Shown: piece by piece, positions 16,309 to 27,839 of the stretch | Layout: every line of letters begins with the position of its first letter | Position numbering within the stretch: position 1 is the first letter of the stretch | Program-made: the position numbers and the translations under genes | Assembly: GCF_001679725.1 (NCBI RefSeq) | Contig: NZ_CP016282.1 | Span: 3,658,001 to 3,722,000 of the forward strand | Reading direction: 5' to 3' | Origin: Cryobacterium arcticum | Lineage (GTDB): Bacteria > Actinomycetota > Actinomycetes > Actinomycetales > Microbacteriaceae | DNA length: 64,000 bases | Notes under the pieces: generated by a model | Told to the model about the DNA's origin: nothing | The model's input: the letters and a program-made list of their open reading frames with translations, nothing else | Database searches by the model: none

Positions 16309-17145
16309 ATGCGCATTGCCACCTGGAACGTCAACTCCATCCGTGCCCGCGTCGACCGGGTGGTCGATTGGATGGTGCGGGAGGACATCGACGTGCTCGC
16401 CATGCAGGAGATCAAGTGCAAGCCCGAGCAGTTCCCGGCGCAGGCGTTCGAAGACGCCGGCTACGAGTTGGCCATCCACGGCCTCAGCCAGTGGAACGGC
16501 GTGGCGTTCGCCAGCCGCCACGAGATGACGGATGTGGCCACCGCGTTCCCCGAGATGCCCGGCTTCCTCAAGGGTGAAGAGGGCCCGGGGCTGCCGCTGG
16601 AGGCCCGCGCGCTCGGCGTCACCGTGAACGACATGCGGCTGTGGAGCCTTTACGTGCCCAACGGCCGTTCACTCGACGACCCGCACTACGTCTACAAGCT
16701 GGACTGGCTGGCCCGGCTGCGCACCCACGCCACCGATGAACTTGCACGCAACCCGGAGCTCGCGATGGCGCTGATGGGCGACTGGAACGTGGCACCGCTG
16801 GACTCCGATGTGGGCGACCCGAGCCTGGTTCCCGGCGTCTCCACGCACATCTCGCCGGCGGAGCGCAGCGCCTTCGAGGCGTTCGAGGCGGCGGGCTTCA
16901 CCGATGTGGTGCGCCCGATCGTGCCCGAGGGGTTCACCTACTGGGACTACAAGGCGCTGCGGTTCCCCCGCAACGAGGGCCTGCGCATCGACTTCATCCT
17001 CGGCTCGCCGGCGTTCGGGGAACTCGTGACGGATGCGAGCATCCACCGCGACGAGCGCAAGGGCGACGCGCCCAGCGACCACGTGCCCGTGCTCGTGGAC
17101 CTCGAGACCGAGGACGAGGACGACGACCGCCCGATGATCTTCTAG
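16309..17145 (+). CDS. xthA: exodeoxyribonuclease III
   Basis: 278 residues, exonuclease-endonuclease-phosphatase fold. Base-excision repair AP endonuclease with 3'-5' exonuclease activity. Motifs: WNVNSIRAR near the N-terminus, Glu of MQEIKCK as metal ligand, YVPNGRS, GDWNVAP with catalytic Asp/Asn, LRIDFIL and SDHVPVL with catalytic His near the end. ATG 16309 follows GGGGGG; the open frame upstream is a shadow of the divergent LLM gene. The tail is acidic (ETEDEDDD). An 18-bp repeat array begins 24 bp after the stop. Confidence 0.97.
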   Translation: MRIATWNVNSIRARVDRVVDWMVREDIDVLAMQEIKCKPEQFPAQAFEDAGYELAIHGLSQWNGVAFASRHEMTDVATAFPEMPGFLKGEEGPGLPLEARALGVTVNDMRLWSLYVPNGRSLDDPHYVYKLDWLARLRTHATDELARNPELAMALMGDWNVAPLDSDVGDPSLVPGVSTHISPAERSAFEAFEAAGFTDVVRPIVPEGFTYWDYKALRFPRNEGLRIDFILGSPAFGELVTDASIHRDERKGDAPSDHVPVLVDLETEDEDDDRPMIF

Positions 17146-17169
17146 CTGCCCGCTGGAGCTTGTTGCTCT

Positions 17170-17242
17170 GGTTGAGCTTGTCGCGGTGGTTGAGCTTGTC
17201 GCGGTGGTTGAGCTTGTCGCGGTGGTTGAGCTTGTCGAAACC
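17170..17242. repeat. 18-bp tandem repeat GGTTGAGCTTGTCGCGGT, four units
   Basis: Three identical units (17170, 17188, 17206) and a last unit ending GTCGAAACC. The core GAGCTTGTCGA is the reverse complement of the core in the array at 8426-8985. It lies between xthA and the ABM-domain gene. Confidence 0.9.
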
Positions 17243-17287
17243 CGGCGAGCCAGCATCCGGGCGCGACCCGTCGCCCATACTTAACGC

Positions 17288-17905
17288 ATGTCTCCTGCCG
17301 CAGCGGGGAACGACAGCGCGCCACAAGCTCCCGCAGACGTTCCCGTCACCGTGTCCATCCGGCGCCGCGTTGCGCCCGAACGCTTCGACGAGGCCACCCA
17401 CTGGGTGCAGACCGGGATGGACCTCGCCAACGAATACCCCGGCTTCCTCGGCTCCGGCTGGGTGCGCGCGCACGCCGGGAGCGGCCACTGGCACATGCTC
17501 TACAAATTCCAGGATGCCGCGTCGCTTGAGGCCTGGGAGAACTCGATCGCCCGCACCACCTGGCTGCTCGAGGGCGAGGGCCTGGTGCTCGAGTCCCACG
17601 TGGTCAAGCGCACCGGCATCGAAGGCTGGTTCGACGAGTCCCAGGAGAACGCGGGGCCGTCCTCCCCGTTCCAGCCGCCGCGGTGGAAGCAGGCCGTGGC
17701 CATCGGGCTGGGTTTCTTCCCGCTGAATGTGCTCTTCACCTACCTGGTCACCGGGGTCGACCCTGAGTGGAACGACATCCCGACCGTGCTGCGGATCCTG
17801 CTGACCACCTTCGTGATGGCGCCCACCATGACCTACCTCGTCATGCCTTTCATCACCCGGCGGCTGCGGCCCTGGCTGCAGAAGCCGCCGAGGCCTAGGG
17901 CCTGA
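17288..17905 (+). CDS. antibiotic-biosynthesis-monooxygenase (ABM) domain protein with two membrane helices
   Basis: 205 residues. An N-terminal ferredoxin-like ABM domain (about 20-110: VTVSIRRRVAPERFDEA, then GFLGSGWVR and WHMLYKFQD) is followed by two hydrophobic helices (about 135-155 and 165-185) and a basic, Arg-rich tail. ABM proteins include small oxygenases and haem-degrading enzymes, but many are uncharacterised; a membrane-linked form is common in actinobacteria without known function. Its last 11 bases overlap, tail to tail, the end of the phosphotransferase gene. Confidence 0.8.
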   Translation: MSPAAAGNDSAPQAPADVPVTVSIRRRVAPERFDEATHWVQTGMDLANEYPGFLGSGWVRAHAGSGHWHMLYKFQDAASLEAWENSIARTTWLLEGEGLVLESHVVKRTGIEGWFDESQENAGPSSPFQPPRWKQAVAIGLGFFPLNVLFTYLVTGVDPEWNDIPTVLRILLTTFVMAPTMTYLVMPFITRRLRPWLQKPPRPRA

Positions 17906-18926
17906 CCGCGGGTCCCAGAGCGGTCAGGGCTGCGCGCAGGCACTCGTTGACCGCGCCACGGTGCGCGACGACCCAGTCGCCCGCATAGCGGCGAGGGGAG
18001 ATTTCCACCAGCTGAACGAGTGCAATGTACATCCGATAGAGCAGCAGTCTGGTGTCCCCGGCCGGGGACCCGAGCGCCAGGCGCGCCCCACACGAGACGT
18101 ATCCGTCCAGCAACGCTGTCGGCACCGGTCCCCCGCCGAGCTGGTCGGCCCCGGCGAACTCGAACAACGGGTCGCCCCAGAACGCCCGCTCCGGGTCGAT
18201 CACGCCGGTCAGGCGTCCGGTGGCGGGGTCCATGAAGAGGTTGCCCGCCCAGAGGTCGGTGTGTACGAGCACGGGGACGGTAACTTCGGCGAGGGCTGCC
18301 CGGTGCCGATGGAGAGCCGCGCGGATGTCGGCCGACGGCACGCTCGTCGCCCAGCGATCGGCATCCGTCAACAAGGCATCCACCATCAACCCGAACGCCT
18401 CCGGCCAGGTCGGCGCGACGAGCCCGGTCGCGCGATTGGGATACCCGAAATCGCTGCCGGTCACCGTGTGCAGGTGCGCCATGACGGCGCCGAGGTCGTG
18501 CAGCAGCTCGGGCTGCTCGGCCGCCGATTCGCCGGTGGCCGTGGTGCGGCCCAGCACGGGCACACCCTCGAGGTGAGTCGCCACGACAACGTCGGTGGGC
18601 AGGATGCGGCGGCTGAAGTCGGTGTGCAGCACCCGGGGCATGAGCAGTTCCGGCCGGCCGGCGGCCAGCCCGTAGACGAGCGCTTCCGTGCGCACCAGGT
18701 CGAGTTCGTAGGTCAGCAGTCGATCGGTGTCGGCGGGGGCTGTCTTCACAATCACCCGAGTGCCGTCGGCCAGTCCGACCCGGTAGGTGGTGGCGAACAT
18801 TCCCCCGGTGAGCACCTCGACGCCGGTCGCCTCGCCAATCGGGTCGAGGATGCGCCGCAGCACGGCTTGGGTCCCGGTCGAGACGTCCGGAGTAGATGAT
18901 TCCGCGGTAGATGGTGCAGTGGTCAC
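17895..18926 (-). CDS. aminoglycoside-phosphotransferase-family kinase
   Basis: 343 residues, GTG start. Protein-kinase-like fold of the APH/choline-kinase family: Lys of VIVKTAPAD is the ATP-binding lysine, VLVHTDLWAGNLF is the Brenner motif with catalytic Asp and metal-binding Asn, and GVIDPERAFWGDPLFEFA contains the metal-binding Asp. The acceptor (sugar, amine or drug) cannot be inferred; no antibiotic cluster is nearby. It ends tail to tail with the ABM gene. Confidence 0.85.
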   Translation of the reverse strand: MTTAPSTAESSTPDVSTGTQAVLRRILDPIGEATGVEVLTGGMFATTYRVGLADGTRVIVKTAPADTDRLLTYELDLVRTEALVYGLAAGRPELLMPRVLHTDFSRRILPTDVVVATHLEGVPVLGRTTATGESAAEQPELLHDLGAVMAHLHTVTGSDFGYPNRATGLVAPTWPEAFGLMVDALLTDADRWATSVPSADIRAALHRHRAALAEVTVPVLVHTDLWAGNLFMDPATGRLTGVIDPERAFWGDPLFEFAGADQLGGGPVPTALLDGYVSCGARLALGSPAGDTRLLLYRMYIALVQLVEISPRRYAGDWVVAHRGAVNECLRAALTALGPAVRP

Positions 18927-19150
18927 GGTTCGAACCTATCGTTCCGATCGATTGTGCTTCCGGCAGTGGTGAAGGAACAGCGCATCCGCTGGAAGCGCGT
19001 CAGGGCCGCGCGCTGAGCGGAGTGGACGGAGAACGACGACATCCTCGTCGAGCATTTCGCGGTCGTCTGGCCGTCCGAGCACGCAGACGAGTCGCACTAA
19101 ACGCTTCGCCGGCTCCACCTGGGTACGCGCGCCGAGCGTGGCTGGGCGGC
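18927..19150. other. 224-bp intergenic stretch without convincing gene
   Basis: Lies between the divergent phosphotransferase promoter and the end of the AEC transporter. A 60-codon minus-strand frame (18936-19118) and short plus-strand frames are open, but none has a recognisable domain or good ribosome-binding site. May hold the promoter of the phosphotransferase gene. Confidence 0.4.
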
Positions 19151-20071
19151 TCAGGCCAGCAGCGCCGCGACGATCACCAGCGCCGGGATCGCGCCGATCG
19201 TGGTCAGGAGCACGGTGTCCCTGGCGACCACGACGCCCCGGTCGTACCGGGAGGCGAAGTTGAAGATGTTCTGCGCAGTCGGCAGTGCGCTGACCGTGAC
19301 CACGGCGAAGAGCTCGGCGCCATCAAGGGCGAAGACGAACCGGCCGAACAGGTACGCGATCACGGGCATGAGCACCACCTTGATCACCGACGCCGCGAAC
19401 ACCTGCTTGCGCCCGGTGCCGGCCTGCAGCAGCCTCTGCCCGTGCAGCGACATGCCGAACGACATGAGCACCAGCGGGATCGCGGCACCGCCGATGATCT
19501 CCAGTGGCGCGATGACGGCATCGGGCACCGTCACGCCGAACGTGGCCACGAGCACGCCGAGCACCGAGGCGATGATCATGGGGTTGCGCAGCGGCTGGGT
19601 GAGGATGCCGCGCACCGACACCCGGCCACGGGTGGAAGAGTCGAGGATGGTGAGCGTGATGGGCGCCAGCACCAGCAGCTGCAGCAACAACACGGGCGCC
19701 ACGTACTGGGCGCTGCCGAGCACGTAGATGGCCACCGGCAGCCCGATGTTGTTCGCGTTGACATAGGTGGCGCTCGTCGCGCCGAGCACGGTCTCAGGCA
19801 CGGGCGCCCGGAAGAACAACCGCGCCAGCAGCAGGTAGAGCAGCATGCCGATGATCACGCTGCACAGCACGGTGGCGAGGAACGCGGAGAACAGCACGTG
19901 CACATCCGCGTGGGCGAGCACCGTGAACAGCAGGGCGGGGGTGGCGACGAAAAAGGCGATGCGGTTGAGCACCCGGCCGGCGCTGTCGCCGGCCACGCCG
20001 GTGCGCTCGACGACGTAGCCCACCAGGATCACAAACCCGATGATCGAGAAACCGACCAGTACACCGCCCAC
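19151..20071 (-). CDS. AEC-family transporter
   Basis: 306 residues, about ten membrane helices in two inverted halves. The family signature YVNANNIGLP lies in the fourth-fifth helix region, with the second-half counterpart LPTAQNIFNFA near residue 265. Members export auxin in plants; bacterial ones carry organic acids such as malate or malonate. The start reads MGGVLVGFSII directly into helix 1. Divergent from the downstream hydrolase. Substrate not assignable. Confidence 0.9.
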   Translation of the reverse strand: MGGVLVGFSIIGFVILVGYVVERTGVAGDSAGRVLNRIAFFVATPALLFTVLAHADVHVLFSAFLATVLCSVIIGMLLYLLLARLFFRAPVPETVLGATSATYVNANNIGLPVAIYVLGSAQYVAPVLLLQLLVLAPITLTILDSSTRGRVSVRGILTQPLRNPMIIASVLGVLVATFGVTVPDAVIAPLEIIGGAAIPLVLMSFGMSLHGQRLLQAGTGRKQVFAASVIKVVLMPVIAYLFGRFVFALDGAELFAVVTVSALPTAQNIFNFASRYDRGVVVARDTVLLTTIGAIPALVIVAALLA

Positions 20072-20164
20072 CCTCTGAGCCTACGACCACGCCTCGATGC
20101 GGCCGGGCGCGCCGGATCGGCAAAAAATCCCGCCGATCGGCGTGGTGCGTCGTACGCTCGAATC

Positions 20165-20980
20165 ATGCCTCACCTCGATGTTCCGGGCGCGAGCCTGTAC
20201 TACGAAGCCCACGGTCACGTGTCGAAGCCCGCGCTGCTGCTGATCCACGCGGGCATCGCGAACCTGCGCATGTGGGATCCCCAGGTTCCCGCGCTGGCCG
20301 CGGACCATTACGTCATCCGCTTCGACACCCGCGGCTTCGGCCAGACGAGCACCGAGGACGTCGAGTTCTCCAATCGAGCGGATGCCCTCGCCGTGCTCGA
20401 CCACCTCGGCGTGGCCCGGGCCACCCTGATCGGCTGCTCGCGTGGCGGTTCCATCGCCATCGACCTGGCTGTGGAGCACCCGGACCGTGTGGCCGGGCTG
20501 GTCACCATCGGCTCCGGCCCGAGCGGATTTCCGCCCACGGAGCTCACCGATGTGGAGGACGCCAGGTTCGACGAGATCGACCGGGCTTTCGAGGCCCAGG
20601 ACTGGCACCGCCAGGCCCGCCTCGAGGCTGCGCTCTGGGACTTCGGCCCGCTGCGGCGGGAGGAGGACCTCGACCCCGACTTCGTCGCGACCGCCTACGC
20701 CCTCAACCGGGTGAACGTCATCCACGCCGACGAGAACCCGGTGTCGCTCCCCCTCGACCCGCCCGCCTTCGACAGGGTCGTCGACATCACCGTGCCCACC
20801 CTCGTCACGGTCGGCGAGTACGACATCTCCGAAGTGCTCGCCCAATACGAATACCTGGTCAGCACGGTGCCCGAGGCGAGCGGATGCGTGTTCCGCGACG
20901 CCGCGCACCTGCCCAATGTGGAGCAGCCCGCCGACGTCGAGCGGGTGCTGCTCGGCTGGCTGGCCGAGAACGGCCTCTAG
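20165..20980 (+). CDS. alpha/beta hydrolase
   Basis: 271 residues from ATG 20165; the frame upstream is a shadow. Oxyanion segment LLIHAGIAN (HAG instead of the usual HG), FDTRGFGQT, nucleophile Ser92 in GCSRGG, probable acid Asp in VGEYDIS and base His in DAAHLPNVEQP. Similar in arrangement to enol-lactone hydrolases and haloperoxidase-like esterases, but substrate is unknown. Its promoter region is shared with the divergent AEC transporter. Confidence 0.88.
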   Translation: MPHLDVPGASLYYEAHGHVSKPALLLIHAGIANLRMWDPQVPALAADHYVIRFDTRGFGQTSTEDVEFSNRADALAVLDHLGVARATLIGCSRGGSIAIDLAVEHPDRVAGLVTIGSGPSGFPPTELTDVEDARFDEIDRAFEAQDWHRQARLEAALWDFGPLRREEDLDPDFVATAYALNRVNVIHADENPVSLPLDPPAFDRVVDITVPTLVTVGEYDISEVLAQYEYLVSTVPEASGCVFRDAAHLPNVEQPADVERVLLGWLAENGL

Positions 20981-21040
20981 GCCCGCTACTCGCGCGCCCC
21001 GCCCGGCGGCCGCACCTCGTGCCGGTCGCTGCACCCCGGG

Positions 21041-21078
21041 TGGCCCACTGCGCCAGCTATAGCTGGCGCACTGGGCCA
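21041..21078. repeat. 38-bp near-perfect palindrome
   Basis: Arms TGGCCCACTGCGCCAGCTA and TAGCTGGCGCACTGGGCCA meet without a loop (centre 21059/21060); only one symmetrical position on each side fails to pair. It lies after the hydrolase stop. It may be an extragenic palindrome or a cruciform-type terminator. Confidence 0.75.
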
Positions 21079-21132
21079 TACGAGGCGCAGTGAACGTGTC
21101 AGCCCGGAGGCCGACCCGCGCGGGATACAGGA

Positions 21133-21156
21133 AGGGCCCCGGTCTCCCGGGGCCCT
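21133..21156. terminator. bidirectional terminator between hydrolase and ptsH
   Basis: Perfect 10-bp stem AGGGCCCCGG / CCGGGGCCCT with a TCTC loop, followed on the plus strand by CTGTTTCGTT. It lies between convergent genes and can serve both. Confidence 0.75.
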
Positions 21157-21194
21157 CTGTTTCGTTGCTAACCCGTTGGGCCGCGGCGCGTGCG

Positions 21195-21476
21195 CTATTC
21201 GGCGGCGTCGTGGTCCGTCTCGAGGATCTGCGCGAGGGCCTCGAGGGCTTCATCGGCGCCCGCGCCCTCGGCGCGCAGCACGACGACCTGGCCGTGTGCG
21301 GCGCCCAGGCTCATCAGGCTGAGGATGCTCGAGGCATCCATGGCCTCCTCGGCCGGGTCGCCCTCGAGGGCGATGGTGACGTCCACGTCCTGGGCGTTCA
21401 CGGCCTCGGCGAAGATCGCCGCGGGGCGGGCGTGCAGGCCGACGCGGCTGGCGATGGTGGCGGTACGTTCTGACAT
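21195..21476 (-). CDS. ptsH: phosphocarrier protein HPr
   Basis: 93 residues. Passes phosphate from enzyme I to EIIA proteins in the sugar phosphotransferase system. His15 in GLHARPAA is the phospho-acceptor. In the helix following, ASSILSLMSLG aligns with the regulatory-serine region of Gram-positive HPr (SIMGVMSLG), placing Ser50 at the position phosphorylated by HPr kinase in Firmicutes. ATG 21476 follows AGGAGGA. No ptsI or sugar permease is adjacent. The 5' leader carries a promoter, a RAT and a terminator (21584-21707), so expression is probably controlled by antitermination. Confidence 0.96.
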   Translation of the reverse strand: MSERTATIASRVGLHARPAAIFAEAVNAQDVDVTIALEGDPAEEAMDASSILSLMSLGAAHGQVVVLRAEGAGADEALEALAQILETDHDAAE

Positions 21477-21583
21477 GGTTCCTCCTGGAGATGGTGAGAG
21501 TGGCACGGTTGAGGCTGTTGGCAGGGTGCCGGACCGATACGGAGGGATCGTCCGGCGGGGTACCGGTGGTAGATCCTCAGGGC

Positions 21584-21627
21584 AAAAAAAAGACCCGATC
21601 ATCAGCCGAAGCTTCAGATCAGGTCTT
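21584..21627 (-). terminator. intrinsic terminator in the ptsH leader
   Basis: On the minus strand, stem AAGACCTGATC (21627-21617) pairs with GATCGGGTCTT (21600-21590), one G-U pair, followed directly by a run of eight U (21591-21584). The loop contains GAAGCTTC. It lies 108 bases before the ptsH start and its 5' arm is shared with the RAT, so the two folds exclude each other. Confidence 0.88.
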
Positions 21628-21650
21628 GCCCACTGACGCGGTCACAATCC
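21619..21650 (-). promoter_or_regulatory. ribonucleic antiterminator (RAT), BglG/LicT type
   Basis: Minus-strand RNA begins GGATTGTGACCG at 21650 and ends GGGCAAGACC near 21621, close to the bgl/lic RAT consensus (GGATTGTTACTG ... GCAGGCAAAACC). It folds as RATs do: GG with CC, bulge A/GA, UUG with CAA, internal loop UGA/G, CCG with UGG, 6-base loop CGUCAG. The 3' end (AAGACCTGA) is the 5' arm of the terminator. Binding by a PRD-containing antiterminator would allow ptsH transcription. No such regulator gene is in the window. Confidence 0.82.
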
Positions 21651-21679
21651 TGTGAGTGCACCGTTTCCAGTGCACGAGA

Positions 21680-21707
21680 ACTGTACCCGCCCGTTCGACG
21701 GCGTCAA
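21680..21707 (-). promoter_or_regulatory. probable ptsH promoter
   Basis: Minus-strand TTGACG (21707-21702) and TACAGT (21685-21680) separated by 16 bp, a good housekeeping-sigma promoter. Transcription would start near 21673, about 23 bases before the RAT. Confidence 0.65.
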
Positions 21708-21800
21708 AATCGCACGGGCCATCTCGCGACAGCGGTGATTCGGTTCCTTCAAGCGCGCCGTGGCAACCATTCGCCCGCCTTCGCGGACGTTCGCAATCGC

Positions 21801-21868
21801 GAGGCGGGGCGAGGCGAGGCGGGGCGAGGCGGGGCGGGGTACGGGGTGCCGGGTGCCGGGCCAGGCCA
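21801..21868. repeat. low-complexity GGCGAGGCGGG repeat
   Basis: Alternating GAGGCGGGGC / GAGGC units followed by GTGCCGG twice, between the ptsH promoter and the giant membrane-protein gene. The rest of the 500-bp gap (21477-21977) holds the ptsH control region and, near 21939, a possible TAACCT -10 element for the plus-strand gene. Confidence 0.65.
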
Positions 21869-21977
21869 CCGGTCCGGCAGGTGCGCGGGAGCGCCACGGC
21901 GAGTGTGTGCACAACTCGCCCGGCGCGCGCGGGCAGCCGATAACCTGTGGTGGCCGCACCACTCATCAGGGGGATTG

Positions 21978-24900
21978 ATGTCACCGAGCAGCTCCATACG
22001 CGATTTCGCCCAGTACGCCGGGCGGCACCTCTGGCCCCGGAGCGCGTCCGAGCTGACCGACACGACCCTCTGCCCGGCCTGCCTGACCCGCCTGCCGTCG
22101 CCGGTCTGTGCGTCCTGCGGGCTCGACCTGCGCCATCCGGCCGCTCGCGAACTCCTGAGCGCGTCAACGGATGCCGCCACCGCGTTGCACCGCCGGGTGG
22201 AGTTGATCGGCCGCATCCGCTTCGACGTGGCCGCGGCCCACTCGGCCGCCGAGGCGCAGCAGGCCAAGACACAGACCGAGACACACGCAGCTTCAGTCCG
22301 ACGAGAGGGACTTGAAGCGGCGGCGCGCGACGCCGCGGCCGCGGCGGCAGCACGGTCGGCGACACCGTCCGTAGCCGACGCTGTCGCCCAGGCCGCAGCG
22401 CAGGCAGCCTCACTGGCGGCGGCGCACGAGGCCTCGCTGGCGCAGCCGCGCGACCCCTCAGTGACCGCGGCCGCTGAGTCACGCACCGCGCCGATCCACG
22501 CCGCAGCCACGCAGGCCGCGCCGGCAGCGTTCGCACCGCCGGTCCCGCACGCGTCAGTCCTGCCCGCATCCGTGCCGCCCGCGTCAGTCCTGCCCGCGTC
22601 CGCACCGCCCGCATCCGCACCGCCCGCGTCAGTCCTGCCCGCATCCGCACCGCACGCGTCGGTCCCGCCCGCGTCCGCTCCGCCTGCATCGGTCCCGCCC
22701 ACATCGGCACCGCCCGCATCCGCAGCGAACGGCGGCCCACCCGGGCGGCGGCGGTCGAGCGTGCAGATCGTGCTGCTCATCGTGGGTGTCTCACTCGTCT
22801 CGGTGGCCGCGATCTTCTTCCTCACGGTGGCCTGGTTCAATGCCGGGCTGGCCTTCCGGTCGGTCGTGGTGGGCGCCTTCACGCTCGCCACCCTGGCCAC
22901 GGCGGCGCTCCTGCGTCGCCGCCGCCTGGTGAGCACCGCGGAGGGCATCGGCGCCCTGGCCGTGGTACTGGTGCTCCTGGACGTCTGGGCGCTGCGGCGC
23001 AACGACCTGGGCGGTCTCGGCGCCACCGACGCGCTGCTCTATTGGGGTGTCGCCCTGCTGGTGTGCACCGCGCTGTTCCTGCTCTGGCACGCCGTGTCGA
23101 ACCTGCGCGTGGCCAGCGTGGCCGGTTTCGCCACCGCCGCTCCGGGCCTCGGGCTGCTGGCCGCGGGGCTCGCGACGGATGCGCCCCCGCTCACCCGGCT
23201 CTTCCTGGCCGCCCTCGGCGTGGCCGCCGGCACCCTCGTGCACCGGTTCACCCTGCCGGGCACGGCCCGGTTCTGGCCCGCGCTCGACCGCCGGGCCGAA
23301 CGCGCCGCGCTGCTCATCCTGGCCGGGCTGGCCCTGGTCAGCGCCCTCGCCGTGGCCGGCTTCGTGCAGCCCGGCACCGACACCGCTCCCCTGCCCAGCT
23401 TCGGCGCCGTCGCCGTGCTCGCGGTGGCGCAGGCCGTCACCCTGCTGACCAGCCGGCGAACGGATGGCGGCTACCGGGCCGCCGCATCCGCATCCGTCGG
23501 CCTGGCCGCCCTGGCCGTGGTGCTGGGCGTCATCGCCCTCAGCTGGCGCACCGGCAGCACCGAGCTTCTCGTTTCCGTGCCACTGCTGACCGCCGCGGTG
23601 CTCGCCCTCGGCGGGGAGCTGGCCTGGCGTCGGCGCACAGCCGGACCGACCCGGCAGGCGCTGCTCACCGGAACACTCTCGGCGACCGTGCTGGCCACGG
23701 CCCTCGGCCTGCTCACGGTTCTGGTGGCCTCGGTGCCGCTGGCCGGCGCCCTGGTGAGCACGCTGGACCGGGCGACCGGCCCGCTCACCGAGGTTCCCGC
23801 GCAGAGCGGGTGGGCCCTGGCGACGCTGGCAGGGGTCGCGGTGTTGGCGGCCGGATTCTGGCGGGCCGGCGCGGTGCTGGCCTCCCGGCTGCGCATCCTG
23901 GCCTGGTTCGGCGCGGTGGCGATGCTGCTGGCGGTGCCGTTCACCCAGTGGCTGTGGCTGATCCTGCCCCTCTACGTGTTGCTCGGCGCCGGCGCCCTGG
24001 CCGCGTTGTTCGCCGCCCGCCGGCGCGCGTACTCCTTCGGGGGGTACCGCAGCTTGATCGTGACGGTTCTGGCGAGCGCCGAGGCCCTCGGATACCTGAT
24101 CGGCTGGGCCACCGCCTCCAGTTGGTGGCTCGGAACCCTGTCGGCGGTGCTGGTTCTCGTGTTCGCCCGACTGCTGCTCGACAGGGAGACCCTTGCCCGC
24201 CGCCGTGGTGCACTGCTGAGTGGCGCGATCGTGCTCGGCCTGGTCGGGGCCGTCGCCACGCCCCACGCCCTCACCCTGGCCGACCCGCCGGTCACGGCCG
24301 TGCTCTGGGTGCTCGTGGCGCTCAGCCTGGGCCTGGTCACCGGGCTGGTGCAGGTTTTCGCGGCGCAGAACCGGGTCGGCGGGCTGACCACCACCGAACG
24401 CCGTTGGGCGTTCTGGACCCTCTGCGCCCCCACTCTCGTTGTGCTCGCGCTGCCCCTCGGCCTCCTGCTCGACGGTTTGTCCTTCTCCGAACGCGCCGCG
24501 GTGGCCCCGGTCGTACCCGTTGCCGGTGTTGTCGTCACGGTCCTGGTCGTGGCGGCGCTGCTGCTCTGGGCGTTGGGCCGCGATTCGCGCGCCCCGGGCA
24601 CCCGGTCGTGGGAGCGGCTGACGGCGGCTCTCCTCGTGGCACCGGCGCTGTTGTCGCTCACGCTCAACCTCGTTCTGATCACGGATGCGCCCGCCGCGGC
24701 ATCCGTGCTCGCCGCGCCGGTCGCGGCCCTGGTCACCGTTGCCCTCGCGCTGGTCCTCCGCCTGGTCGGGCGCCGGCCCGCCGTCGTCGGCCTCGAGCTC
24801 GGCGCCGCGCTGGTGCTCGCCTCCGCGTTCCTGCGACCGAACGTGACCGAGTTCGGCTGGCTGGTGCTGCTCATCACCGGCGTGATCCTGCTGCTCGCCG

Positions 24901-27839
24901 CGGTCGACACCGACGGCCTGTTCGCGTCGCGGTCGTGGCGCCGCCACCTCGGCTGGCTCGCCCTGGTCACCGCGACCGCGGCGCTCTGGTGGGGCCTGGC
25001 GCGCGCCGGAACCACCCCGGTCGAGGCCTATGTGCTGCCGCTGGCCGGGCTGCTGCTGCTCCTGGCCGCACTGCTCTGGCGTTTCGGCCGGGTCGACCGC
25101 GCCGTCGCCGCGAGCCCGGGCTCCGCGCTGCTCACCCTGGCCGGGCTGGTCGTGGCCCTGCTCCCCCTCGCCGTGACCGGACAGACCGGCTCGGTGCTAC
25201 GCCCGGTGATCGTGGGCACGGCATCCGCAGTGCTGCTCGTGGGCGCCAGCATTCTGCGCAGCACCCCGGCCCGCTCGGCGTACCTCGCCGCTGTCGGTCT
25301 GGCCGGCGCCCTCGGCCTGCTGACCTGCGGCATCGCCCGCTCCCAACGCATCGTCACGGCCGCCGGGCCGGCCGGTCCCGCACTCGAAGCGTGGCTGCTG
25401 CCCACCGTGGGCCTGCTGATCCTGGCCGCAGTACTGCTGCTGCGGCAGCCGGATGCCCGCCCTCAGACCATCCGACGCCGCGCGAGCACCGCGCTGCTGC
25501 TGGTGGGCCTGATCACGCTGACCCTTCTGGAGGCGGCGGCGTTCGACTCCTCGGCTCTCGGCGCAGCGCGACCCCTGATTCTGGTGCCGGCGCTCTCGGT
25601 GTTCGCCGTCGTGGCGTTCCGGGCAGAGCGGACTCCCCTCGGTGCCGTCACCGCTTGGCCGGCCCTCGTGCTGGCCGGGGTCGCGGCGTCCGCGGCCCTG
25701 CTCGCCGGTGCCGTGCAGCCGTTCGAGCTCGTCGCCGTGCCCGTCGCGCTCGCCCTCGCGGCTGGACAGCTGGTGCGGGTGCGCCCGTGGTCGCCTGCGT
25801 CTGCGGGCACCCTCGCCACGGGCGGAACGACGGCCCCCACCGGCAGCACGGGACCGGCTGAATCGGCGGGCATGACCGGCTCGGCGCCCTCCGCTTCTCG
25901 CCCGCTCTCGTCGGCGCCGATCTGGATCGGCGTGGGACTGGCCCTCGCGGTGCTGCCCAGCGCCCTCGCGGCCGTGGGAACCCCGCCACTCGCCGGCGGC
26001 ATCCTGAACGGCATCACCGCCGACGGGCTCCGGCAGATCGGTACCCTCGTGGTCGGCGGGGTGCTCGCCCTGGCGGGCGCGGCCGCCTTCGGCCGGGCCC
26101 GTTGGGCACCGCTGGCCTGGCCCGCCGTGCTCGTCGGGGTGGCCGCCATCATCGTGACCGTCGGCGGGCGGCTGCAGGCGCTGCTCGCCACAGGCCCGGC
26201 CGACGGGCGGGTCGAGGCCTGGTTACTGCCCGCGGCCCTGCTCCTCGTGGTGACCGGCGGCTGGCTCATCACGGCAACGTCGGCAACGTCGGCAACGTCG
26301 GCAACGTCGGCAACGTCGGCAACGTCGGCAACGTCGGCAACGTCGGCAACGTCGGCAACGTCGGCAAACGGTATTCCTGTGCCGGCCTCACCCGGAGCTG
26401 TCCCGTCCGTCCGCCGCACCGTCGGCTACGCCCTGGTCGGGGTGGCGCTGCTGGGAATCCTCGGCACCGAAACCGGCGCCCTCGGCTTCGCCCCGTACGC
26501 CCCGGGCCGCGCGATCGCCCTGGTGGTCCTGTTCGCTCTGGTGCACGTCGCCGTGCTCCGGTTCGACCGCAGCCGGGCCGGCACCGTGCTGGCCTGGCTC
26601 GCCCTCGCCGCCGGGCTGCTCTCGCTCGTGGCCGGCGCCGGACGCGACCTGTTCACCCCGATCGAACTGGGCACGATCCCGCTCGGTCTGGCCCTCGTGG
26701 CCGGGCAGCTGGTCACCGCCGGGCTCCTCAGGGCTCCGCTCGGTGCACCGGCAAGCCGGCAGACCGGCGCGGCGCTTCCCGCATCCGCCCGGCTGCGCCA
26801 CCAGGGTGTTGTCGCCGTCGGCCTCGCGCTCGCGCTGCTGCCGAGCGCCGTCGCGGGTAGCGACGGCACGGTGCTGCGGCCGGTGCTCGTGCTGGTCGCG
26901 GCCGGCGCGCTCGGCATCCTGGGTGCGCGGCTTGTGGCGCATCCGCGATGGGGCGTGCTCGCCGGGCCGGCCACCCTGGTGGGTGTCTTCGCCGTGCTCG
27001 TCACGTCCGGGCTGCGCCTCCTGCCCCTGTACGGCACGCCGGCCGGGCCCACCGGGCAGCTCGAGGCGTGGCTGCTTCCGGCAGCGGGTCTCGTGCTGGC
27101 CACCGGTGCCGGGCTGGTTTGGTCGGCAGGCCGGGCGCCGGCCGCCGCGGTCCAGGGCGTGCGGCGCACGGGCTACGGTCTCGCCATGGGCGTCGCCATC
27201 GGGATCGTCCTGGCCGAGGCGCCTGCGCTGCAGTACGATCCGCTGGCCACCGTGCGGATGCTGGTGATCGTGTGGCTGCTCTCCGCGGCGTACCTGGCCG
27301 TGTTCTCCCTCGACCCGAGCCCGCTCGGCCGGCTGCTGGCCTGGGTGACGCTCGCGGCGGCCGCCGCCATGCTCGGCGCCGGCGTCGCCCGTGGTGTGCC
27401 CGACCCCGTCGAGCTCGTCAGCGTGCCCCTGGCCGTCGTCCTCATCGTGAGCGGATGGCTGCACCTGGGCCGCGCTCCCGCCGCACGCAGCTGGGGCGCA
27501 CTGGCTCCGGGGCTGCTGCTCCTGTTGCTGCCGTCGCTGCTGCTCGACCTCACGGCCAGTCCGCTCTGGCGGGTGGTGGGCCTGGGGATCGTCGCGACCG
27601 CGGTGCTGCTCCTCGGGGTGCGGCGCAAGCTGCAGGCCCCGTTCGTGCTGGGCAGCGTCGTGCTCCTGGTGCACGGTCTCGCCCAGCTGTGGCCGTGGAT
27701 CGCGCTGGCGTACACCGCGGTGTACTGGTGGTTGTGGCTCGGCATCGGCGGTGTTCTGCTGATCGCCCTGGCCGCGCGCTACGAGCAGCGCATCCAGAAC
27801 CTCAAGGCCGTGGCGCTGCGGGTCTCGGCGCTGCGGTAG
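21978..27839 (+). CDS. giant polytopic membrane protein, SCO7613 family
   Basis: 1,953 residues. Starts at ATG 21978 after AGGGGGATTG. A zinc-ribbon (Cys32, Cys35, Cys44, Cys47; CPAC and CASC) opens the protein. An Ala/Gln-rich, possibly helical segment follows (about 75-190), then a PAS(A/V)P pentapeptide array (191-250) and from residue 260 dozens of hydrophobic helices to the end. The transmembrane part looks internally repetitive (recurring GPVxAWLLPxxGLLLL and VGxALALLPSA blocks). A second array, (ATS)10, interrupts it near residue 1435. This matches the actinobacterial SCO7613 C-terminal-domain proteins; function is unknown. The helix repeats suggest a scaffold or lipid/polymer-handling role (inference). 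Confidence 0.85.
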   Translation: MSPSSSIRDFAQYAGRHLWPRSASELTDTTLCPACLTRLPSPVCASCGLDLRHPAARELLSASTDAATALHRRVELIGRIRFDVAAAHSAAEAQQAKTQTETHAASVRREGLEAAARDAAAAAAARSATPSVADAVAQAAAQAASLAAAHEASLAQPRDPSVTAAAESRTAPIHAAATQAAPAAFAPPVPHASVLPASVPPASVLPASAPPASAPPASVLPASAPHASVPPASAPPASVPPTSAPPASAANGGPPGRRRSSVQIVLLIVGVSLVSVAAIFFLTVAWFNAGLAFRSVVVGAFTLATLATAALLRRRRLVSTAEGIGALAVVLVLLDVWALRRNDLGGLGATDALLYWGVALLVCTALFLLWHAVSNLRVASVAGFATAAPGLGLLAAGLATDAPPLTRLFLAALGVAAGTLVHRFTLPGTARFWPALDRRAERAALLILAGLALVSALAVAGFVQPGTDTAPLPSFGAVAVLAVAQAVTLLTSRRTDGGYRAAASASVGLAALAVVLGVIALSWRTGSTELLVSVPLLTAAVLALGGELAWRRRTAGPTRQALLTGTLSATVLATALGLLTVLVASVPLAGALVSTLDRATGPLTEVPAQSGWALATLAGVAVLAAGFWRAGAVLASRLRILAWFGAVAMLLAVPFTQWLWLILPLYVLLGAGALAALFAARRRAYSFGGYRSLIVTVLASAEALGYLIGWATASSWWLGTLSAVLVLVFARLLLDRETLARRRGALLSGAIVLGLVGAVATPHALTLADPPVTAVLWVLVALSLGLVTGLVQVFAAQNRVGGLTTTERRWAFWTLCAPTLVVLALPLGLLLDGLSFSERAAVAPVVPVAGVVVTVLVVAALLLWALGRDSRAPGTRSWERLTAALLVAPALLSLTLNLVLITDAPAAASVLAAPVAALVTVALALVLRLVGRRPAVVGLELGAALVLASAFLRPNVTEFGWLVLLITGVILLLAAVDTDGLFASRSWRRHLGWLALVTATAALWWGLARAGTTPVEAYVLPLAGLLLLLAALLWRFGRVDRAVAASPGSALLTLAGLVVALLPLAVTGQTGSVLRPVIVGTASAVLLVGASILRSTPARSAYLAAVGLAGALGLLTCGIARSQRIVTAAGPAGPALEAWLLPTVGLLILAAVLLLRQPDARPQTIRRRASTALLLVGLITLTLLEAAAFDSSALGAARPLILVPALSVFAVVAFRAERTPLGAVTAWPALVLAGVAASAALLAGAVQPFELVAVPVALALAAGQLVRVRPWSPASAGTLATGGTTAPTGSTGPAESAGMTGSAPSASRPLSSAPIWIGVGLALAVLPSALAAVGTPPLAGGILNGITADGLRQIGTLVVGGVLALAGAAAFGRARWAPLAWPAVLVGVAAIIVTVGGRLQALLATGPADGRVEAWLLPAALLLVVTGGWLITATSATSATSATSATSATSATSATSATSATSANGIPVPASPGAVPSVRRTVGYALVGVALLGILGTETGALGFAPYAPGRAIALVVLFALVHVAVLRFDRSRAGTVLAWLALAAGLLSLVAGAGRDLFTPIELGTIPLGLALVAGQLVTAGLLRAPLGAPASRQTGAALPASARLRHQGVVAVGLALALLPSAVAGSDGTVLRPVLVLVAAGALGILGARLVAHPRWGVLAGPATLVGVFAVLVTSGLRLLPLYGTPAGPTGQLEAWLLPAAGLVLATGAGLVWSAGRAPAAAVQGVRRTGYGLAMGVAIGIVLAEAPALQYDPLATVRMLVIVWLLSAAYLAVFSLDPSPLGRLLAWVTLAAAAAMLGAGVARGVPDPVELVSVPLAVVLIVSGWLHLGRAPAARSWGALAPGLLLLLLPSLLLDLTASPLWRVVGLGIVATAVLLLGVRRKLQAPFVLGSVVLLVHGLAQLWPWIALAYTAVYWWLWLGIGGVLLIALAARYEQRIQNLKAVALRVSALR
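22548..22727 (+). repeat. 15-bp degenerate tandem repeat coding PAS(A/V)(P/L)
   Basis: Twelve units of 15 bp encode pentapeptides such as PASVL, PASAP and HASVP (residues 191-250 of the SCO7613-type protein). Forms a stiff Pro/Ala linker between the zinc-ribbon/helical part and the membrane part. Confidence 0.85.
26274..26363 (+). repeat. perfect 9-bp tandem repeat coding (ATS)10
   Basis: Ten identical GCAACGTCG units in frame, in a loop between membrane helices. Perfect identity indicates recent slippage; gain or loss of units keeps the frame. Confidence 0.95.

Follow-up and report, generated by a model that had tools for sequence, protein, structure and literature searches.

The window analysed here, a 64,000-nt stretch of Cryobacterium arcticum DNA, contains a stand-alone ptsH gene behind a leader that resembles a BglG/LicT-type attenuator. 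The general proteins of the PTS are mostly regarded as housekeeping, and the locus raises the question of whether, and through which regulator, expression of HPr could follow the supply of a particular sugar. A sequence-only reading had proposed that HPr phosphorylates the antiterminator that controls its own gene. We consider it highly probable that the leader is a ribonucleic antiterminator (RAT)/terminator attenuator through which an auxiliary ptsH belongs, in trans, to the beta-glucoside regulon of one antiterminator, LicT1, beta-glucosides being sugars of plant type.

All the parts of such an attenuator are present on the minus strand (Table 1). Direct reading gives a promoter (TTGACG at 21707-21702, 16 nt, TACAGT at 21685-21680), a RAT and an overlapping terminator ahead of an intact ptsH, as the sequence-only reading had described, save that the RAT, found at 21650-21622, is 29 nt long and not 30. 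A consensus scan of 21100-22000 returned this promoter as the only sigma-70-like site (shuffle mean 0.1), and gave no second promoter for ptsH in that region. Within the RAT, U4-U7 can pair with G22-A25 and C10-C13 with G18-G21, and inspection of the pairing by eye agrees with the proposed architecture with two asymmetric internal loops. The terminator arms, AAGACCTGATC and GATCGGGTCTT, are followed by eight T, the last at 21584; the fold reproduces the 11-bp stem, the eight U and the sharing of the 5′ arm with the RAT 3′ end, with the first two U of the tract supplying 2 of the 11 pairs. The terminator segment (-21.1 kcal/mol, z = -4.87) and the whole 101-nt leader (z = -5.21) were each more stable than all 200 shuffles; the RAT alone is within chance by itself (fold of -8.0, z = -0.85, 39 of 200 shuffles equally stable). 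The leader terminator was missed by a promoter/terminator scan, its stem-loop probably lying outside the loop and stem limits of that scan, and an Rfam gathering search of the whole window gave 0 matches and no family for the RAT. The hairpin near the expected transcript 5′ end has a similar counterpart, readable by eye, in the leaders of two relatives (G044 and G004), and it might shield that end of the leader RNA.

Table 1. Features of the ptsH locus in the window
Feature	Position	Strand	Basis
Promoter, TTGACG-N16-TACAGT	21680..21707	-	Direct reading and sigma-70-like scan; G031, G044 and G004 keep both boxes and the spacing
Hairpin, 8 pairs, GAAA loop, near expected transcript 5′ end	21656..21675	-	Fold
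RAT, 29 nt, GGATTGTGACCGCGTCAGTGGGCAAGACC	21622..21650	-	Direct reading, strict pattern, covariation
Intrinsic terminator, 5′ arm overlapping RAT 3′ end	21584..21627	-	Direct reading, fold, covariation
Shine-Dalgarno-like AGGAGG	21481..21486	-	By eye
ptsH, HPr, 93 aa (stop within coordinates)	21195..21476	-	HPr profile matches
G+C-rich hairpin 3′ of ptsH, possible transcript end	21133..21156		Scan

The gene product belongs to the HPr family of phosphocarriers (TIGR01003, 88 bits against a cut-off of 47.9; PF00381, 83.9 against 23). A long divergent ORF without a Pfam match lies on one side of ptsH and a convergent alpha/beta-hydrolase gene on the other, so that the transcript is probably monocistronic. 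The hairpin beyond the gene was the one hairpin that the scan listed (two overlapping sites, plus strand) and has a weak U tract on the ptsH strand. Between ptsH and the hydrolase gene, at about 21040-21079, we noted a near-perfect 18-bp inverted repeat (TGGCCCAGTGCGCCAGCT / AGCTGGCGCAGTGGGCCA), which is found in G031 too.

Matches to a strict RAT pattern are rare. The 4.35-Mb genome has two, one in the ptsH leader and one in the intergenic region between the LicT1 gene and bglF, with 0 for a backwards-pattern control; across 57 genomes of the genus there are 19 matches in 14 genomes, with 0 for the control in every row. All 19 genus sites were checked: 15 are flanked by relatives of LicT1 and BglF1 (in one of these, L102, the LicT1 match is partial), 3 stand before HPr and 1 before ptsI. 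An RNA model (R1), built partly from the bgl and ptsH sites of this genome, recovered both of them (E = 1.7e-17 and 6.5e-14, respectively) together with a weak antisense match at the bgl site (2.2e-4). In an alignment of 17 of the 19 genus leaders (A2, which leaves out L105 and L095), 98.4% of pair cells were paired and 13 cells were changed on both sides; the corresponding values for 11 of 13 ptsH-type leaders from three families (A3, which leaves out L105 and L207) were 99.3% and 5 cells. None of 500 shuffles scored as high in either case, in a count that ignores relatedness. Slid structures were paired at 24-47% and 26-54%, respectively, a comparison that favours the paired structures because they were drawn from the same sequences. 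Terminator segments of eight other leaders (own bgl; G004, G044; G541, G728, G650, G527, G727) each beat all 200 shuffles. A relaxed RAT scan (3 substitutions) matched 41 of 700 shuffled leaders, and given this chance rate it was used for 0-substitution matches only (L257-L262; L256 was already a strict match). Covarying pairs in both the RAT and terminator stems of relatives' leaders, together with the two CAT-PRD genes described below, bear out the earlier assignment to BglG/LicT-type antitermination, and this class of mechanism is very likely right.

The RAT is conserved in relatives, though it stands before ptsH or ptsI in just 4 of the 57 genus genomes (G000, which holds the window, G031, G044 and G004), always at one syntenic locus. 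The 29-nt RAT is identical in the four, which also have the promoter boxes and the terminator in common (one end pair is broken in G004); the flanking genes are the same, and the spacer and far upstream DNA diverge. All four are among the 14 genomes with a licT1-RAT-bglF arrangement (hypergeometric 0.0025, calculated by hand with phylogeny ignored). The neighbouring hydrolase gene is present in 56 of the 57 genomes, and in the 30 of 56 hydrolase loci examined, HPr adjoins it in these four genomes and as a fragment in G012. This fragment (residues 31-91; L264:5454-5737) lacks both the active-site region and the leader, and G012 has no PF03123 match. Copies of a GTCTCGACAGGCTCGACCA repeat precede the fragment, and the same repeat is found upstream of the bglF2 leader (L011, at 1752 and 1804). 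A tree of selected HPr sequences groups the four RAT-linked HPrs in one clade (support 0.90) and separates them from the fruA-ptsI-ptsH copies, indicating that a duplicated HPr was probably captured once in the genus. The leader of G004 precedes ptsI-ptsH. This ptsI is 97.9% identical to the fru ptsI of the same genome, against 90-92% for the fru ptsI of four other genomes, and the two G004 copies (L165 and L168) have 84-90% DNA identity at both ends and 92-100% per 100 columns between, a pattern that looks like gene conversion over an older copy. A tblastn search of the window region gave no clear remnant of ptsI (best E = 0.065). A separate scan of at least 69 loci collected by HPr similarity gave a RAT-like match (up to 3 substitutions, ≤600 bp upstream) at 1 of 69 (L079, chance-like), with some loci holding less than 600 bp of upstream sequence. 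We rejected absence of the leader from this set: L020 has one further upstream, and a ≤600-bp scan misleads since many ptsH genes in the set lie behind ptsI.

The proposed tie between the leader and a lone ptsH did not hold, since ptsI-ptsH follows it in G004 and ptsH-ptsI in two other families. Among 398 genomes of the family, the RNA model gave 20 matches in 14 genomes. Sixteen of these loci were examined (L199-L202 were left out): 2 are those of the present genome, 10 of the other 14 are clearly before an EII gene, and 4, out of register, have EII coding nearby (L185, L186, L188, L194); a RAT before ptsH was found at none of the 14. The strict pattern applied to 396 genomes of the order gave 25 places in 22 genomes, comprising the 2 already described, 12 before EII, 9 before ptsH, 1 before an MFS-like transporter and 1, probably a chance match, inside an unrelated long ORF. 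The nine ptsH cases belong to families f9 (G727, G754, G650, G527) and f10 (G728, G681, G541, G755, G772). In 9/9, HPr and then EI follow the RAT and a divergent BglF relative lies upstream; the seven clusters compared at 13-14 kb, with an EI query that carried an N-terminal extension and with matches of an out-of-frame BglF2 query (13 stops) disregarded, all contain a licT relative, a bglA relative (after ptsHI in L256) and a bglF preceded by a RAT of its own, with a T run behind that RAT. That a single licT adjoins two RAT units is strong circumstantial evidence for its driving both, and these clusters support LicT control of general PTS genes. In a sample of 394 genomes of the class, the strict pattern matched 4, all from the window's own family, and none outside the order at this stringency.

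Which protein reads the ptsH RAT? The sequence-only reading implied a PRD antiterminator gene elsewhere in the genome, and two were found, LicT1 and LicT2, each with a CAT domain and two PRDs. The LicT1 gene is followed by a RAT, a terminator, bglF (EIIBCA) and a GH1 gene; the LicT2 gene is the last of a second operon, which also holds genes for a permease and a beta-glucosidase-like protein. LicT1 is the best candidate, because it forms a unit with a RAT and bglF, because the leader of the LicT2 operon has a RAT-like element of another kind (GGACATGTGACTGG...CAGGCAGGATCC, found in G004 and G242 too), and because in G031, assembled as one contig and carrying the same ptsH leader, LicT1 is the sole PF03123 protein and LicT2 is lacking. 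The CAT domain of LicT1 is also nearer to that of LicT (1l1c; E = 4.4e-10 against 9.5e-7 for LicT2), and LicT1 has His opposite both PRD2 positions that are Asp in 1h99. The other RAT-like element, the protein set of G031 and the CAT comparison make it unlikely that LicT2, or both antiterminators together, read the ptsH RAT and so link ptsH to another or wider set of sugars, even though LicT2 is encoded in the same genome with the same domains, and is closer overall to LicT, outscoring LicT1 with LicT PRD structures as well as with the LicT equivalog model (NCBIfam NF046042; 255.3 against 224.9 bits). Both scores are below the cut-off of 300 bits, and we therefore describe LicT1 as LicT-like only. 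Compared with the bglF RAT of the same genome, the ptsH RAT has G in place of T at position 8, another loop and a change at G26 (A); the affinity of LicT1 for the two could therefore differ. A second RAT-like class, GGACATGTRACTGG...CAGGCAGGATCC, stands before the LicT2-linked permease in three genomes (L011:1888-1918 in G000, L269 from 804 in G004 and L263 from 3296 in G242), and the CAT-domain residues NSS of LicT2 and NNN of LicT1 are possibly a specificity pair with RAT class. A third antiterminator class (G004, G044, G041) had no strict RAT in the loci examined.

LicT1 is thus the likely controller, in trans. The HPr loop envisaged by the sequence-only reading can be at most partial. PMC1489936 describes phosphorylation of LicT by HPr~P, which allows an active dimer to form, and the window HPr has an intact GLHARP site; a switch that is mainly self-feedback, in which HPr made from the window ptsH determines the state of the antiterminator of that very gene, would fit both. 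The genome, however, has four HPr-domain genes including the window ptsH, which is thus probably an auxiliary copy and not the sole HPr of the cell, and one of the others, in a fruA-ptsI-ptsH operon with its own ptsI and fruA, encodes an HPr 85% identical to that of the window. On this evidence we regard a mainly self-feedback switch as improbable. It is less probable still, to the point of being very doubtful, that the leader is a decaying or non-functional remnant of a bgl operon and that ptsH is expressed little or not at all. The rarity of the leader in the genus and the truncated HPr of G012 are what decay might leave behind; against it, the RAT is identical and the terminator pairs are kept in four genomes with diverging flanks, and the HPr proteins of G000 and G031 are identical although their DNA differs. 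The earlier interpretation is thus partly supported, and its claim appears to be better cast as a LicT-like beta-glucoside regulon that in this genome includes a spare ptsH and in two other families ptsHI.

In LicT/BglG systems lacking substrate, the permease's phosphate inactivates the antiterminator. The leader described here has the hallmarks of a BglG/SacY/LicT-type RAT attenuator: a RAT of ~30 nt whose ends are conserved and which has two asymmetric internal loops, a terminator 5′ arm in common with the RAT 3′ end, and a protein with CAT and two PRDs encoded in the genome. It shares with the LicT/RAT beta-glucoside PTS operons (S. mutans bglP, C. acetobutylicum bgl, B. subtilis bglPH) the RAT consensus, given as GGATTGTTACTG-N6or7-CAGGCGAGACC in PMC12628678, the terminator overlap and a CAT-PRD gene. 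In this genome the bglF leader is an ordinary example of that kind, whereas in the window the target is no permease but a general phosphocarrier gene that stands alone, far from licT. In B. subtilis ptsGHI, which is under GlcT and likewise has a RAT-terminator in a PTS operon with ptsH and ptsI, the RAT stands before ptsG, and ptsHI, with a strong promoter of their own, show little change (PMC12445079). Here the RAT is directly before ptsH (or ptsI), a consensus scan gives no second promoter, and no permease or antiterminator ORF lies beside ptsH in 17000-26000. For C. glutamicum ATCC 13032, PMC2222622 reports a BglG-family pseudogene only, and fructose-PTS ptsI and ptsH under the SugR repressor; that cluster, with its fructose permease, resembles the fruA-ptsI-ptsH copy of the present genome but is controlled by a repressor. 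Among the matches listed in the open-access literature, which was the scope of our search, we found none that describes RAT control of ptsH in actinobacteria.

For the LicT1 regulon we infer the following. As long as beta-glucoside is absent, LicT1 would be held inactive by phosphorylated BglF1, and transcription would end near 21584; once the sugar is present, LicT1 would bind the two RATs, causing joint read-through of ptsH and the distant bglF-bglA. The extra HPr would feed the induced permease and raise the phosphate supply, and HPr~P would perhaps activate LicT1 at its second PRD, giving a positive loop. The three other HPr-domain genes would limit such a loop, and they also count against the LicT1 reading as a whole in that the extra HPr may be physiologically minor, as does the presence of the leader before ptsH/ptsI in so few genus genomes. 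A broader proposal, which takes in RAT-ptsH-ptsI beside bgl in two families and RAT-ptsH or RAT-ptsI-ptsH in trans in the genus, is that actinobacteria have more than once put general phosphocarriers directly under a beta-glucoside LicT-like antiterminator, with HPr both feeding BglF and activating the antiterminator in a self-reinforcing, possibly bistable switch; we put this forward tentatively, as somewhat less probable than its opposite. If a sugar-specific antiterminator does set the supply of HPr, and elsewhere of EI, a single sugar would shift phosphate flow to other PTS sugars and PRD regulators. The pairs of RATs around a single licT, and the trans version found here, would then illustrate the capture of a duplicated HPr gene by a switch already in place.

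Other arrangements of general PTS genes were seen in these genomes. A larger PRD protein is encoded near another EI and HPr in the window's own genome (L012; G000:C1:3261219-3264836), in a 727-aa frame without a CAT match, which makes a second set of general PTS genes with a PRD regulator of its own. Behind short EIIB-/EIIA-like ORFs in four genomes (L175, L176, L178 and L179, from G020, G040, G048 and G012), an extra HPr gene without a RAT is a second case of HPr duplication adjoining sugar-specific PTS genes. The MFS-like sugar transporter of the order sample (L204, G792) is preceded by a strict RAT with a matching arm and no clear T run, and to judge from this sequence RAT control may reach non-PTS transport.
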